Below are positions 2,513 through 8,138 of a DNA stretch of 48,121 nucleotides, piece by piece. Position 1 is the stretch's first letter, and each line of letters opens with the position of its first letter. Source of the stretch: an uncultured beta proteobacterium. GTDB taxonomy: Bacteria > Pseudomonadota > Gammaproteobacteria > Burkholderiales > SG8-41. The stretch lies in contig CAIWNB010000058.1 of the NCBI GenBank assembly GCA_903913965.1, positions 1 through 48,121 on the forward strand. Direction: 5' to 3'. A program made the translations under genes and the position numbers. The notes below the pieces were generated by a model. The model was not told the DNA's origin, did not search any database, and saw only the letters and a list, made by a program, of their open reading frames with translations.

Positions 2513-3481
2513 TCAATCGGCACGCGCACCGGACGCCTTGACCACTTTCGCCCATTTGGCGATGTCGTCGTTGAGATATTTCTCGAACTCGGCGGGGTTC
2601 ATGCTCATCGGTTCGGCGCCCTGCTCGTTCCAGGTTTTCTTCACATCAGGTCGCGCCGCAATGCGCACGATCTCGGCGTTCAGGCGGTCGATCACCGCTT
2701 TGGGCGTACCGGCAGGCACCATCACGCCAAGCCAGATCGTCGCCTCATAATCCTTGACGCCGGCCTCGCTGACAGTGGGCACATCGGGCAGCACGCTCGA
2801 GCGCTTGAGCCCGGTGGTGCCGAGCGCGCGTACGCGGCCGCCCCTGACCATGGGCGTCATGGTCGTGATCGCATCAAACATGATCTCGACCTGCCCGGAC
2901 ATCACACCGGTGCGCGCCTCCGAACTGCCCTTGTAGGGCACATGAGTGATGTCAACGCCGGCCATCGACTTGAACAACTCGCCGGCCAGATGATAGGGCG
3001 TGCCGTTGCCCGACGATGCGTAGTTCATGCCGTGCGGCTTGGCCCGCGCGATGGCGACCAGTTCCTTCACCGATTTGGCCGGCACCGAGGGATGCACCAC
3101 CATCACCAGATCCGAATAATTGATCGGCGCCACCGGCACGAACTCCTTCATCAGCGCAAACGGCTTTTTCTGGATCAGTGATTCGTTGATGGTGTGCGTG
3201 TTGGACATCAGTAACAGCGTGTAGCCGTCGGCGGGGGAACGCGCCACCAGCTCGGTGCCGATGATGGACCCGGCACCGGGACGATTGTCGATCACGAACG
3301 ATTGCCCGAGCGGTTCCTGCAGGCGTTGGCTGAGATAGCGTGCATAGATATCCGCCGGTCCCCCGGCGGCGAAGGGCACAACCACGCGCACCGATTTCGA
3401 CGGGTAGGTTTGTGCCTGCGCGAGGAGTGCTGTAAAAAGCAGCGACGCCAAGGTCAAGGCGGTGCGAAAGGACAGGTTCAT
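2513..3481 (-). CDS. Bug/TctC-family periplasmic solute-binding protein (second copy in operon)
   Basis: A 322-residue protein read from the ATG at 3481, which has a GAGGAG ribosome site upstream. The frame is open to 3577, but the extra residues lack signal-peptide character. The N-terminus MNLSFRTALTLASLLFTALLAQAQ is a signal peptide. It is followed by YPSKSVRVVVPFAAGGPADI, the DNRPGAGSIIG motif and SPADGYTLLLMSN, all diagnostic of the Bug family. It is the first gene of the operon, 38 nt before the FAH gene. It differs clearly in sequence from the other Bug protein of the operon, so it is probably not a recent tandem duplicate and may have a different ligand. Confidence 0.93.
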   Translation of the reverse strand: MNLSFRTALTLASLLFTALLAQAQTYPSKSVRVVVPFAAGGPADIYARYLSQRLQEPLGQSFVIDNRPGAGSIIGTELVARSPADGYTLLLMSNTHTINESLIQKKPFALMKEFVPVAPINYSDLVMVVHPSVPAKSVKELVAIARAKPHGMNYASSGNGTPYHLAGELFKSMAGVDITHVPYKGSSEARTGVMSGQVEIMFDAITTMTPMVRGGRVRALGTTGLKRSSVLPDVPTVSEAGVKDYEATIWLGVMVPAGTPKAVIDRLNAEIVRIAARPDVKKTWNEQGAEPMSMNPAEFEKYLNDDIAKWAKVVKASGARAD

Positions 3482-3842
3482 AAGGGGCTCCTCACCATTG
3501 CGGGATCGCGGAAAGGCGCCAGTATCCGGCCCGATCGTGCTGCGGTCAACCAAGCCGGCGACGTTTCGCACCGGCACTTGACCTCACGCGGCGGCGACAG
3601 AAAGCGTCCGCAGATGCAGCGCTCATCATCATCTGGCATGGCTCGTCCGCGCGGCGCCGCGGCGTGCTTGCCAGCGACGCTGGCGATGACTAATCTAGCC
3701 CCCCGCCGTTGCCGCTTAACGGCGGCACATCCTGCGGCTTCGTGGGCTGTGAAGCGCGCCTGGCCGCGCACCAGAAACGACACGACGCACACCACCAATA
3801 ACGCGCAGCGAAAATTGTTGCCGTCACGACAAAGGCTCACCG
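3482..3842. other. Divergent intergenic region with two palindromes
   Basis: These 361 nt separate the minus-strand carboxylate operon from the plus-strand MFS gene and must carry both promoters, though no convincing -35/-10 pair was found. Two inverted repeats are visible: GCCAG/CTGGC at about 3670-3684, and an 8-bp stem at 3703-3710 with 3718-3725 (CCGCCGTT/AACGGCGG, 7-nt loop). Neither is followed by a T-run, so they do not look like terminators. A 120-codon minus-strand frame covers the region but has no homology I recognise, and it overlaps the start of the Bug gene. Confidence 0.5.
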
Positions 3843-5156
3843 ATGGATACCGCAGAAAACACGGTCATGAAGCGCATGCTGGCGCGCGTCGTCGCGGCCC
3901 AACCGCATGAAATGCGCGCGCTGCTGTGGTCCTTCGCCTATTTCTTCTGCCTGCTCGCCGGCTACTACGTGCTGCGACCCGTGCGCGACGAGATGGGGCT
4001 CGCCAGCGGCATCAAGAATCTGCCCTGGCTGTTTACAGCGACTTTTTTTGTCATGCTGGCGGTGGTGCCGATCTATGGCGCGCTGGTGGCACGCCTGCCG
4101 CGCCAGCGCTTTATCCCGCTGGTCTATCACTTCTTTGTCATCAACATTGTGATCTTTTGGGTCTTGCTCACTCAAGGCATCGCACTCGCCGTTACCGCGC
4201 AGGTGTTTTTCGTCTGGATCAGCGTCTTTAACCTGTTTGCCGTATCGGTGTTCTGGTCGTTCATGGCCGACCTCTACGGCGCCGAACAGGGCAAGCGGCT
4301 GTTCGGCTTCATCGCGGCCGGCGGTTCGGCCGGTGCGCTGCTGGGGCCGTCGATTGCGGCGGGGCTCGCCGAGCCGCTCGGACGCGCCAATCTGTTGCTG
4401 ATCGCCGCCGTGCTGCTCGAATGCGCGGTGTTTTGCGCAATGCGCCTGGAAGCAGCCGCTGCCGTCTTCAAAGCCTCGGCGCAAGAGAGCACGCCAACCG
4501 CGCCAGCATCGAAAGGCTTCGGTGGCAGCTGGATTGGCGGCATCCTGATGATCGTGCGTTCGCCTTATCTGGCCGGCATCGCGACCTGGGTGGCGCTGCT
4601 GTCTCTGGCCGGCACCTTTTTGTATTTCCAGCAGGCCAACATCGTCTCCGCACTGACCGACGACCCCAACAAACGCACCGCCATCTTCGCGCGCATTGAT
4701 CTGGCGGTCAGTTTGCTGACGGTGATCGTGCAGTTTCTTGCCACCGGCAAACTGATCAAACGCTTTGGTGCGGGCCCGGCGACCGCCTTTCTGCCCTTCG
4801 TATTTGCCGCCGGTTTTATCGCGCTTTGGGCAACCCCCATGTTATGGGTGGTAATTGCTTTTCAGGCCTTGCAGCGGGCGGCCAACTTTGCCATCGCCAA
4901 TCCGGCGCGCGAAGTGTTGTTCACAGTGGTCGAGCGCGAGGAGAAATATAAAGCCAAGAACGTCATCGACAACGTGGTGTTTCGCGGCAGCGACGCCTTG
5001 TCCGGCTGGCTGTTCTCGGCCTTGCGCGGACTCGGTCTCGAACTCGGATCGATCTCGCTGGCGACGGTGCCGGTGGCGGCGTGCTGGCTGGCGCTGTCAC
5101 TGGCACTCGGCCGCGCGCATGAGCGCAAGGCTACAGACGCCAAAGCCGCGCCCTGA
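3843..5156 (+). CDS. MFS-type transporter, distantly like NTP/NDP exchangers
   Basis: A 437-residue polytopic protein with about 12 hydrophobic segments and a hydrophilic central loop around residues 205-222. The N-terminal region HEMRALLWSFAYFF followed by YYVLRPVRDEMG is characteristic of a proteobacterial transporter group that automated annotation calls MFS and that resembles the ATP/ADP translocase (TLC) family. The C-terminal half contains EREEKYKAKNVIDNVVFRG, also typical of that group. The substrate is unknown. It is convergent with the selenoprotein gene, leaving only 3 nt between the stop codons. No strong Shine-Dalgarno precedes the ATG; this start gives the usual family N-terminus. 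Confidence 0.8.
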   Translation: MDTAENTVMKRMLARVVAAQPHEMRALLWSFAYFFCLLAGYYVLRPVRDEMGLASGIKNLPWLFTATFFVMLAVVPIYGALVARLPRQRFIPLVYHFFVINIVIFWVLLTQGIALAVTAQVFFVWISVFNLFAVSVFWSFMADLYGAEQGKRLFGFIAAGGSAGALLGPSIAAGLAEPLGRANLLLIAAVLLECAVFCAMRLEAAAAVFKASAQESTPTAPASKGFGGSWIGGILMIVRSPYLAGIATWVALLSLAGTFLYFQQANIVSALTDDPNKRTAIFARIDLAVSLLTVIVQFLATGKLIKRFGAGPATAFLPFVFAAGFIALWATPMLWVVIAFQALQRAANFAIANPAREVLFTVVEREEKYKAKNVIDNVVFRGSDALSGWLFSALRGLGLELGSISLATVPVAACWLALSLALGRAHERKATDAKAAP

Positions 5157-5159
5157 CGC

Positions 5160-5675
5160 TCAGGCCAATTGCAACAACTTGAGCGCCCGCTCGATCACGT
5201 CATCGGCGATTTGCTTTAACTCGTCGGCGCTGCGGTTCTGGATCGGGTGCGGCGTATAGACCACCGCCGGCTCAAAACCCAGCGCACGCGACTGCACCTC
5301 GACCGCATCGCGAAATTCGGTCGTGATGATGGAGACACCGGCGATGCCGCGGCTGTCAAAGTTCATCAGGTCGTGCAGACTGCACGACGTGCATGAGCCT
5401 CAGTCGGAAAGCCCGATCATCACCACATCAACCGCGGCGGCGATTTTCTGCAGGTTCTCCGTTGTCGCGACCTTGGCGTTGGTCGGTTTGCCAACACGCA
5501 CGGTGTTCAAGCCGCGTTCACGCAAGCGCAGCTCGACCTGATTAAAAAACTCGTCGGTACGTGTCTTGCCAATATCAAAGAGACCGATGGTTTTTCCAGC
5601 CAGCGATGGCGGTGGCGTCAGCCGCGCGCGTTTAACCGGTGACATTTCTGACGTCGGATCCCGCATCCAGTTCAT
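5160..5675 (-). CDS. UGSC-family selenoprotein; in-frame TGA at 5400-5402 read as selenocysteine
   Basis: Reading through one TGA gives a 171-residue protein with selenocysteine at position 92. The residues around it read IGLSD-U-GSCTSCSLHD, which contains the UGSC motif that names a known (seleno)protein family. Without readthrough the frame splits into a 91-residue piece and a 68-residue piece in the same frame, each with no family match of its own. The N-terminal half has a Rossmann-like beginning (AGKTIGLFDIGKTRTDEFF) and the C-terminal half continues as an alpha/beta domain. The ATG overlaps the upstream stop (ATGA), and a purine-rich GAGGGGG site lies just ahead. The role is unknown but likely redox, given Sec next to Cys95 and Cys98 and the thioredoxin-like neighbour. 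The selenocysteine machinery is not in this window. Confidence 0.88.
5364..5399 (-). promoter_or_regulatory. Candidate bacterial SECIS element for the UGSC selenoprotein
   Basis: Directly 3' of the TGA there are 11 nt and then a perfect 7-bp stem, GTCGTGC / GCACGAC, closed by the 5-nt loop AGTCT (plus-strand coordinates 5370-5388). The loop begins 18 nt after the UGA and has G as its second base. From memory, E. coli fdhF has a very similar apex (GC-AGGUCU-GC) 17 nt after its UGA. The flanks can add outer pairing (TCAT with ATGA, GGCT with AGCC). There is no bulged U in the upper stem. The element lies inside the coding sequence, as bacterial SECIS elements do. Confidence 0.75.
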
Positions 5676-6790
5676 TCCCCAATCCCCCTCATATCCCTAA
5701 CTTCCCTGGTCACCAACTGCAATTCAGCTTTATTGCGCCCGGCCAACCAGCCCGGCAACACCGCTGAAAACAAACCGGCCTGACCGCCGGCACGCACCAC
5801 GACAATGCCGTCGTCGTGAAACTTAGGAATCATTTCGTCAGCGCGCCCCGCCGCCACGCCCTCACCAATGCCGTCGAGCCCGGCGAGTATCTCGCGTCCC
5901 GGCCGTATCGTTGCCTCATACAAAGCGCGTTCGATCTCACGCCGGCCCCACCCCGCTTCCCTGTAGATACGGTAATGCTCGGGCGAGAGCACAACGATGG
6001 CGCGCGCCGATTGAGTCAGGCGCACATGCCCCATGCGCACGAGATGCGTGGCGAAAGAACGCGACAGCCCCGCAGGATCACGCGTCTTTTGATCAACAAA
6101 CGCTTCGACGCCATGGCCCTGAAACAGCGTCACCGCCGAGCGGCCGCGCGGAATGCCGCGCGCCACCGACAGCGGCTCCCAATCCGGATCAGTTTCGTCC
6201 TCGGCAAAACACAAGGTAATCTTGCTCGGCGCACCGAGTGTGGCGCGGTCGGCCTCACCGGGCTTGCCGCCACCGACGTTGCGCACAATTAGATTCAGTG
6301 CGCGGCCGATCGTCAGGTTGGCACGATTACCCTGCCCCAGCGCATTCACACCTGCATTCATGCCGATCGCCTGAGTCACCGGACCGTTGACGATAATCAC
6401 CGGTGAGGAAAAATAGGTTGTCGCCAGCACCCCGTGCAGGGTGAACAATGGATCCAACGCGGCTTCCAGCACCGCCAGCAACACCGGCATGTATTCGGGT
6501 TTGCAACCCGCCATCACCGCATTGATCGCCACTTTCTCGATCGTGCACGGCGCCAGATAAGGCGGAATATTACCGATCACCTCGGTGGGCTTGCGACTGC
6601 TGCCCTTCAACATACGCAGCACGCGCTCATCGGTCGGCGGCGTCACCGGCAGACCATCACTCCAGCCCCGTTCAAAGCAAATTTCCATCGGGTCGGCGTG
6701 CGCGCTGTATTCGATCTTGCGTGCCGCCAGAACGATGCCGCCCTTATGCCTGGCTTCCAACCGCTCGGCCACCCCGGGCTCGAGAGTCAA
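5672..6790 (-). CDS. Conserved protein of unknown function, partner of the UGSC selenoprotein
   Basis: A 372-residue soluble protein that I know only as a conserved neighbour of UGSC-type genes; no catalytic function is established. Visible blocks are FERGWSDGLPVTPPTDERV (about 38-56), the PPYLAPCTIEKVAINAVMAGC region (about 76-97), GMNAGVNALGQGNRANLTIG (about 143-162), and an acidic CFAEDE motif near 193. The start shown is a TTG at 6790 with a GAGG 4 nt upstream; the first ATG is 33 codons later and would remove conserved sequence. The frame is the same as that of the upstream thioredoxin-like gene, only 6 nt away across a TGA, so the two may be one selenoprotein. The 3' end overlaps the UGSC gene by 4 nt, implying translational coupling. 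Confidence 0.75.
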   Translation of the reverse strand: MTLEPGVAERLEARHKGGIVLAARKIEYSAHADPMEICFERGWSDGLPVTPPTDERVLRMLKGSSRKPTEVIGNIPPYLAPCTIEKVAINAVMAGCKPEYMPVLLAVLEAALDPLFTLHGVLATTYFSSPVIIVNGPVTQAIGMNAGVNALGQGNRANLTIGRALNLIVRNVGGGKPGEADRATLGAPSKITLCFAEDETDPDWEPLSVARGIPRGRSAVTLFQGHGVEAFVDQKTRDPAGLSRSFATHLVRMGHVRLTQSARAIVVLSPEHYRIYREAGWGRREIERALYEATIRPGREILAGLDGIGEGVAAGRADEMIPKFHDDGIVVVRAGGQAGLFSAVLPGWLAGRNKAELQLVTREVRDMRGIGE

Positions 6791-6799
6791 CGAACCTCA
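6764..6799 (-). promoter_or_regulatory. Hairpin after the TGA that ends the thioredoxin-like frame (possible second SECIS)
   Basis: After the TGA at 6797-6799, a stem CTCG-A-GCC / GGC-CGAG forms with a single bulged A on the 5' side and the 6-nt loop CGGGGT. The loop starts 20 nt after the UGA and has G at its second position, which fits general bacterial SECIS geometry. In GC-rich coding DNA such hairpins also arise by chance, so this is suggestive only. Confidence 0.35.
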
Positions 6800-7144
6800 C
6801 CCGGGCTGGGTTGCGGGCAGGCCATCGCCAAGGCCGGCGATACCGGTCAGACGCTGCCACGCCGCGCGATCCCACCCCATCACGCGCTCGACTTCCAGAC
6901 CGTCCTTGTAGCGTATCAGCGTCGGCGTCGCCTTGATCGCATTCAGCCATGAGACATCCAGCGCACGATCGTCGATCATACTGGCGACGCCGCCGGGAAA
7001 TTGTGGATCGTCCTGCGAGACCACCTGAAATGGCATCGAATGCGCAGCCGCCTCGCGCAATTGCGGTACGATCATTGCGCAGGTCGGGCATGAGCGTTTA
7101 ACGAAGGCGGCCAGCCCATCGGCAACAAGAGGGTTCGGTTCCAA
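6797..7144 (-). CDS. Thioredoxin-like protein with CPTC active site
   Basis: A 115-residue thioredoxin-fold protein. The active site is CPTC at residues 19-22 in FVKRSCPTCAMIVPQL, and the conserved cis-proline is visible in KATPTLIRY near residue 74. It has no signal peptide, so it is probably cytoplasmic. The start is a TTG at 7144: AGGA lies 6 nt upstream, and an in-frame stop just beyond rules out an earlier start. It is the first gene of the minus-strand selenoprotein cassette, and a likely role is to reduce or oxidise the downstream partners. If the TGA at 6797-6799 is recoded, this is the N-terminal domain of a 490-residue protein with Sec at position 116. Confidence 0.82.
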   Translation of the reverse strand: MEPNPLVADGLAAFVKRSCPTCAMIVPQLREAAAHSMPFQVVSQDDPQFPGGVASMIDDRALDVSWLNAIKATPTLIRYKDGLEVERVMGWDRAAWQRLTGIAGLGDGLPATQPG

Positions 7145-7172: not shown

Positions 7173-8138
7173 ATGCGCGACGCCATGATAGATCATCCTT
7201 CCCCACCATGCAGCCTGCCGTGCCCCGATGTGCAGCGGCGACGACTGCTGCAATATCTCTGCACCGCCTCGCTGGCCGGCGCAACCGCTGTCATGGCGGC
7301 TGAGACACCCACACTGCTGCGCCGTGCGGTGCCGCGCAGCGGCGAGCTGCTGCCCGTGATCGGGCTGGGCACTTATCTGGTTTTGGATGTCGCCGCCGAC
7401 GCGCCTGAAATCGGCGAGTTGCGGGACGTACTGCGCGGCTTTGCCGATGGCGGCGCCAGCGTGGTCGACAGCTCGCCGATGTATGGCATGGCCGAAGCGC
7501 GCACCGGTGACCTCACCGCTGCGCTGAAGCTGCGCGAGCGGCTCTTTCTCGCCACCAAGGTGTGGACCAGCGGTCGCGAGGCGGGCATCGCGCAAATGAA
7601 TAACTCCCTGCGACTGATGCGCACGACGAAGATCGACCTCATGCAGGTGCATAACCTGCTCGATACCGCCACGCACATGAAGACCATGCGCGAGTGGCAA
7701 CAGGCCGGTACTCTGCGTTATCTCGGTATCACGCACTATCATGCCGGCGCCTATGCGGCCCTGGAAAAACTGCTGAAGACGCGTGAATACGATTTTGTGC
7801 AATTCAACTATTCACTGGCCGAACGCGAGGCCGAAACGCGCCTGCTCGACGTAGCCGCGGAGAGCGGCACAGCGGTGATCATCAACCGGCCCTTCGCCCA
7901 GGGCGAACTGTTCCCGCGCGTGCGCGGCAAGCCACTGCCGGCATGGGCGGCGGAATTCGACTGCGAGAGCTGGGCGCAATTCTTTCTGAAATACATACTC
8001 GGGCACCCGGCGGTCACCTGCGTCATCCCGGGCACCGGCAAACTTGCGCATTTACGCGACAACCTGAAGGCCGGTAGCGGACGCCTGCCAGACGCCACCA
8101 TGCGGCGGCGCATGGCGTCTTACCTCGACGGTCTGTAA
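7173..8138 (+). CDS. Aldo/keto reductase with Tat-like signal
   Basis: A 321-residue protein with a twin-arginine-like leader (QRRRLLQYLCTASLAGATAVMAA), followed by an AKR barrel. Residues of the AKR tetrad are recognisable: Asp and Tyr in VVDSSPMYG (about 105-113), Lys in ATKVW (about 128) and His in QVHNLLD (about 161). The C-terminal CVIPGTGKLAHLRDNLKA is the usual NADP-binding segment. It probably reduces or oxidises carbonyl compounds; the Tat-like leader suggests export with bound cofactor, unusual for this family. ATGs at 7173 and 7185 are both possible starts and neither has a strong ribosome site. It is divergent from the selenoprotein cassette, 28 nt away. Confidence 0.87.
   Translation: MRDAMIDHPSPPCSLPCPDVQRRRLLQYLCTASLAGATAVMAAETPTLLRRAVPRSGELLPVIGLGTYLVLDVAADAPEIGELRDVLRGFADGGASVVDSSPMYGMAEARTGDLTAALKLRERLFLATKVWTSGREAGIAQMNNSLRLMRTTKIDLMQVHNLLDTATHMKTMREWQQAGTLRYLGITHYHAGAYAALEKLLKTREYDFVQFNYSLAEREAETRLLDVAAESGTAVIINRPFAQGELFPRVRGKPLPAWAAEFDCESWAQFFLKYILGHPAVTCVIPGTGKLAHLRDNLKAGSGRLPDATMRRRMASYLDGL

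Follow-up and report, generated by a model that had tools for sequence, protein, structure and literature searches.

The window, a 48,121-nucleotide stretch of DNA from an uncultured beta proteobacterium, carries at positions 5160-5675 of the minus strand a gene for a selenoprotein of the UGSC family. When the complement of 5675-5163 is translated with TGA as U, it yields 171 residues (171 codons plus stop) followed by a terminal TGA, with the in-frame UGA at 5400-5402 placing selenocysteine (Sec) at residue 92, inside the motif D-U-G-S-C-T-S-C (DUGSCTSC, residues 91-98). An earlier reading of the locus from the letters alone (hereafter, the sequence-only reading) had described two frames of the same register parted by a single TGA and the motif that arises when this codon is read as Sec, and translation confirmed both. 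Its coordinates hold, but it had not stated that the gene lies on the minus strand, nor had it included the partner gene and the family-wide expansion described below; the plus-strand reading of this frame, which runs into stops, was discarded. The proposed family membership is borne out by the PF24696 profile, which scores 126.3 bits against a cut-off of 25, while the NF041046 model, "UGSC family (seleno)protein", scores 122.2 bits, narrowly under its cut-off of 125. The U-G-S-C (or C-G-S-C) motif that characterises the family is also present. As the sequence-only reading had expected of standard gene callers, ORF calling with table 11 breaks the gene up, leaving an ORF of 91 aa with a remnant downstream of it, and most UGSC genes are split or truncated in this way by automatic annotation. 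This is a genuine selenoprotein gene of the known UGSC family and, taken alone, a further member of it.

The gene belongs to a conserved cluster. Directly upstream and on the same strand lies a gene of no known family (5672-6790, up to 372 aa), which we call the partner, and whose stop codon overlaps the UGSC start in an ATGA at 5675-5672, so that the two genes are probably translationally coupled. Six nucleotides further upstream, a minus-strand ORF at 6797-7144 encodes a thioredoxin-like protein of 115 aa with a CPTC motif (TIGR01068, E=5e-4, a weak match below the cut-off), beyond which an aldo/keto reductase gene diverges on the plus strand (7173-8138; PF00248, 95 bits). On the other side, the UGSC gene converges with a plus-strand MFS-like transporter gene (3843-5156; PF07690 just below cut-off), followed on the minus strand by genes for a TctC/Bug-type periplasmic solute-binding protein (2513-3577; PF03401, C58:2528-3343) and an FAH-family hydrolase (1587-2474; PF01557). 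The order aldo/keto reductase, thioredoxin-like protein, partner, UGSC, MFS-like transporter, TctC and FAH hydrolase is largely kept in homologous loci of other genomes. There, the aldo/keto reductase gene is conserved upstream, the MFS-like transporter keeps its position (52-97% identity), the TctC protein has an ortholog in 10 of the loci (68-77% identity, and 96% in L020), and the FAH hydrolase is found at 79-81% identity (98% in L020). Wherever a homologous locus has the partner in reach, the thioredoxin-like gene lies immediately upstream of it, and the product of the thioredoxin-like gene is a candidate electron donor of the unit in the window. No relatives of it were found at the other UGSC copies of the source genome, indicating that it belongs to the subgroup of the window. 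The conserved locus is also carried by metagenome-assembled genome (MAG) records titled "Bordetella parapertussis" (L020-L023, L025, L027, L028, L030 and L042); unnamed betaproteobacterial MAGs share it with these records, and the species label looks wrong.

Downstream of the in-frame UGA, a hairpin can be folded at 5370-5388 (minus strand), with a perfect stem of 8 bp formed by GUCGUGCA (5388-5381) and UGCACGAC (5377-5370), a 3-nt loop GUC separated from the UGA by 19 nt, and an energy of -10.9 kcal/mol when folded alone. All these values lie within the constraints published for bacterial SECIS elements (bSECIS), namely a loop of 3-9 nt with a G within its first two positions, a stem of 4-16 bp, a spacing of 16-37 nt and an MFE <= -7.5 (PMC13188914). 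The sequence-only reading had given a 7-bp hairpin at 18 nt with G in the loop; the hairpin and its G stand, and the other two values are corrected to 8 bp and 19 nt. The hairpin exceeds what chance would give: when codons were shuffled synonymously, the hairpin score of the window copy was reached in about 1% of cases, and across all copies the observed score was reached at a median frequency of 0.015. We gathered 97 complete UGSC copies from the source genome and others, all of which (97/97) have U at the Sec site, and 89 distinct sequences entered the pairing analysis. In the fixed register, 88% of the stem cells are paired, a share that drops to 19-47% if the partner strand is shifted. At the second stem pair, 53 of these sequences have C-G and 34 have G-C, with the pairing kept. 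This exchange follows a Cys/Gly versus Trp codon difference and is therefore partly tied to the protein. The agreement with the published constraints and the register conserved across copies support the bSECIS reading, and the hairpin is present in most, not all, of the copies examined. Three genes with an in-frame UGA (L120 1425-1952, L126 6851-7363 and L147 5985-6509) have no good SECIS hairpin in the usual place according to a simple rule. An Rfam scan of the window at gathering thresholds gave no match.

Conservation of the UGA extends to 28 homologous loci whose proteins are 68-98% identical, which excludes a sequencing or assembly error. The source genome encodes SelA (545 bits), SelB (428.5 bits), a SelD that itself has a Sec motif (GGGUGCK) and a tRNA-Sec with anticodon TCA (75.5 bits), in agreement with the earlier claim that the organism makes selenoproteins. 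The findings that the sequence-only reading had named as speaking against it (no selB or selC in the genome, an unrelated residue at position 92 in homologs, or a cysteine codon in place of TGA) were all looked for and none was encountered. Therefore, the sequence evidence for a UGSC selenoprotein is very strong: the hairpin 19 nt downstream would guide SelB in bringing Sec-tRNA(Sec) to the UGA at 5402-5400, and we regard this as almost certainly the way in which the protein is made.

The UGSC gene of the window is one of many. The source genome has 19 UGSC matches, each containing one TGA and no other stop, and the pairwise identity between their UGSC domains has a median of only 25%, indicating that these copies are old. 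UGSC was found in all 36 genomes searched of the taxonomic family of the source (its own included), at 2 to >50 copies each, and in only three of 274 sampled genomes of the class, again including its own. A 5.7-Mb MAG (G276) has 58 UGSC matches, 51 of them with a single TGA as their only stop. Although MAGs can mix strains, one that is rated 100% complete and made of about 30 contigs (G294) still has 21 matches.

In the source genome, a partner domain of ~350 aa accompanies every UGSC copy (19/19), being fused C-terminally to it in 12 cases and encoded by an adjacent gene on the same strand in seven. Among 60 genomes, the 39 that have UGSC are precisely the 39 that have the partner, and SelA was matched in 37 of these 39 (one contig-end fragment, one weak) versus five of the other 21. 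The two genes need not touch, since some loci homologous to that of the window have other genes between UGSC and a partner situated about 5-8 kb upstream of it. The two-part nature of the system is thus well supported: the UGSC protein and the product of 5672-6790 are very probably the two halves of an obligate unit, which elsewhere in the genome is a single chain. Searches of the partner against Pfam and NCBIfam, alone or as an alignment, gave nothing beyond chance-level scores, and neither single-sequence nor profile searches of PDB sequences retrieved a relative of the UGSC half or of the partner half. The GOS paper (PMC2398784) had already recorded UGSC fused to a domain named Unknown_1, which could be the same as the partner. 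Variations of the arrangement occur, such as a UGSC-partner fusion with another stand-alone partner gene and another UGSC gene behind it (L059 1887-3446), or two tandem partner genes preceding one UGSC (L128 5995-8642). In G276, at least one clear relative (L176 on C76) and a weaker one (L177 on C80) are fusions that keep the UGSC-partner layout with CNAGIT instead of UGSC, having neither Sec nor Cys; their partner half is well kept (about 275 bits). The retention of both domains in these two suggests that the partner may have a role without Sec.

The units of the source genome are associated with transport genes. TctC proteins occupy 14 of the 29 immediate neighbour slots of its units versus four of 79 randomly sampled genes of the same genome (p=9e-7), a comparison in which the gene caller under-calls equally in both sets, and the excess holds at an assumed TctC frequency of 10% (p=2e-7). 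TctC genes are, however, so common in this genome, with at least 150 matches (481 first-look candidates, of which 150 were scored), that the neighbourhood alone says little on any single copy. These solute-binding proteins represent a very large expansion of their own in the source genome. Elsewhere, the units have neighbours such as MmgE/PrpD, hydroxyacid dehydrogenase, malate/lactate dehydrogenase, FAH and glyoxalase, in addition to LysR, thiolase, TauD and amidohydrolase families.

An AlphaFold2 model of a fused copy (L061), built from 34 relatives and covering UGSC and partner, has high confidence (pLDDT 90.6, pTM 0.90), in further support of a two-part unit, and places Sec (residue 95 in this copy) after a strand (87-93) and before a helix (96-111). 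The PDB fold matches of the UGSC half are flavodoxin-like or Rossmann-like (flavodiiron protein, MdaB, azoreductase, NQO1 and FMN reductase), and the top 50 contain no thioredoxin. An E-value under 0.001 is reached by a single match, a GTPase whose superposition is poor, and we therefore speak of a flavodoxin-like topology and not of homology to any matched fold. The UGSC domain is thus predicted to have a flavodoxin-like alpha/beta architecture in which Sec sits where the helix following the third core strand begins, and the C of U-G-S-C is likely the resolving thiol. The literature has suggested a likely Trx-like fold for UGSC (PMC2398784), which the flavodoxin/Rossmann-like PDB matches do not support and which we set aside. 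The model of the partner (pLDDT 87.4) has no confident fold match; its weak PDB matches, to cyclic amide hydrolases, class I fumarase and chorismatase, have TM-scores <0.3 and an rmsd mostly >10 A, and we do not take them as signs of homology.

Sequence profiles weakly relate the Sec half to the Sec subunits of glycine, sarcosine and D-proline reductases. The window protein matches the C-terminal part of the GrdB (E=1.8e-5) and GrdF (E=4.8e-5) profiles, and some fused members have weak matches to the PrdB, GrdB, GrdF and GrdH profiles. In the window protein, the match covers the Sec region (residues 76-169 to 331-421 of the profile) and scores far below the cut-off of the GrdB/PrdB family, represented by PF07355, TIGR01917 and TIGR04483 (TIGR01917, 23.8 bits versus 602), and PF07355 has no match in it or anywhere in the source genome. 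The one correspondence at residue level came from a profile comparison with GrdB-like Cys proteins (E=2.5e-4, probability 43%), in which the Sec aligns with the first Cys of their N-C-P-x-C motif. A phylum-wide search for GrdB recovered only short Cys proteins with C-terminal similarity. Five proteins of 312-326 aa (frame length; L169, L170, L171, L173 and L174) from genomes of this phylum have an N-C-P-[VI]-C-H motif and match the C-terminal half of PF07355, and are possible Cys relatives of the Sec reductases.

To our knowledge, no substrate, cofactor or activity has been reported for any UGSC protein. For glycine reductase, it is established that protein B uses its Sec to attack the carbon of the substrate. 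The weak similarity to GrdB, GrdF, GrdH and PrdB, together with the obligate second domain, the divergence of the copies and the transporter link, suggests that the UGSC-partner pair is a protein-B-like reductase unit, and, as to the redox role proposed in the sequence-only reading, the evidence points to a substrate-specific reductase subunit over a general thiol oxidoreductase. The unit would then act like protein B of glycine, sarcosine, betaine or D-proline reductase: with the partner domain helping to hold a small organic acid, Sec would attack an activated carbon of this acid and displace a leaving group, and thiols, supplied in the window by the thioredoxin-like protein (6797-7144), would then free the Se adduct. 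We advance this mechanism, with its thiol release of the adduct, only tentatively, drawing on the analogy with known reductases. Different copies may serve different acids, many of them imported via TctC-dependent transporters, and from the neighbourhoods we infer such substrate specificity. Against a reductase stand the weakness of the GrdB/PrdB similarity and its confinement to the Sec half, the partner model that lacks a confident fold match, and the C76 and C80 proteins of G276, which keep both domains with neither Sec nor Cys. Nevertheless, Sec insertion, a two-part unit, a protein-B-like reductase and substrate-specific copies together form the explanation that we favour, with slightly more confidence than doubt.

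The rival that survives best, although we find it rather unlikely, takes Sec as the nucleophile of a non-reductive enzyme acting on organic acids, such as a lyase, hydratase, hydrolase or transferase. The neighbours are indeed often dehydratases, hydrolases or CoA enzymes, the weak fold matches of the partner are cyclic-amide hydrolases and class I fumarase, and rare members have lost Sec and Cys while the rest is kept. However, enzymes almost always employ Sec for a selenol that becomes oxidised or alkylated, loss of the resolving C of U-G-S-C is rare, the similarity is to Sec subunits of reductases, and the TM-scores of those partner matches are below 0.3. Unlikelier still is the supposition of the GOS paper that UGSC proteins have a thioredoxin-like fold and serve as general thiol oxidoreductases or in peroxide defence, with the partner then being an accessory. 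The UxxC motif, the thioredoxin-like gene upstream in the window cluster and the likely Trx-like fold assigned in the literature (PMC2398784) would fit such a role, whereas the predicted flavodoxin/Rossmann-like fold, with thioredoxins missing from its top 50 matches, does not, and dozens of divergent paralogs beside varied catabolic neighbours are a poor fit with general defence. We give little credence to the idea that the units bind, sense or chaperone (a metal, selenium species or TctC ligand) rather than catalyse: despite their one-to-one association with solute-binding proteins at many loci and the frequent binding of small molecules by flavodoxin-like domains, Sec is costly and yet kept in 97 of the 97 complete copies. 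Finally, a UGA that is a true stop, a mutation or an assembly error, leaving two fragments or a pseudogene, would agree with the automatic ORF calling that cuts the gene in two, but is hardly credible given a TGA conserved in 28 homologous loci and 19 paralogs, a SECIS conserved with a compensatory pair, and the complete Sec machinery of the genome.

Few selenoproteins are as common in natural waters as those of the UGSC family, which have no known function. As a second, unnamed domain is found in every complete neighbourhood of the source genome, UGSC should not be studied alone; the neighbouring transporters give candidate substrates for the units, and the predicted fold is unexpected. With about 50 copies of a single selenoprotein family, one betaproteobacterial genome would be on a par with the largest selenoproteomes known, and the use of dissolved organic acids by these bacteria would depend in part on the supply of selenium. 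In the searchable literature, we found no description of the TctC link, of genomes with tens of copies or of a partner that is obligate across genomes, although absence there is not proof of novelty. In context, the gene of the window is part of an obligate two-part selenoprotein system that is hugely expanded in one bacterial family, which suggests an uncharacterised family of selenium enzymes, multiplied in some bacteria like their uptake proteins. More speculatively, it could represent a new class of two-part, Sec-dependent and substrate-specific reductases for TctC-imported organic acids, amplified alongside the solute-binding proteins in one family of Burkholderiales, a proposal that we consider possible but less than probable.

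With the published UGSC family (PF24696, NF041046 and the marine selenoproteome papers), the window protein shares the full-length domain, the U-G-S-C motif and the SECIS directly downstream; in contrast, the partner found here has no family model. GrdB, GrdF, GrdH and PrdB are Sec subunits of substrate-specific reductases, as proposed here for UGSC, which shows weak, repeated similarity to them around Sec. UGSC is nevertheless only about 170 aa long, resembles GrdB in its C-terminal part alone, and has a partner without sequence relationship to any library family. Expansion by substrate, to which we liken that of UGSC, is also a feature of grdB in Cloacibacillus porcorum MFA1, where there are eight Sec-containing grdB genes, one pair of which has been implicated in fluoroacetate reduction (PMC10838667). 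Finally, very many selenoprotein genes in one genome recall the largest selenoproteomes reported, those of Olavius algarvensis Delta1 (57) and a Methylomirabilota MAG (63), which are reported to comprise many families (PMC13188914). Here, in contrast, a single family accounts for 51 clean copies in one 5.7-Mb MAG and, whereas the review of these record selenoproteomes names mainly anaerobic groups (PMC13188914), the expansion described here belongs to a Burkholderiales lineage.
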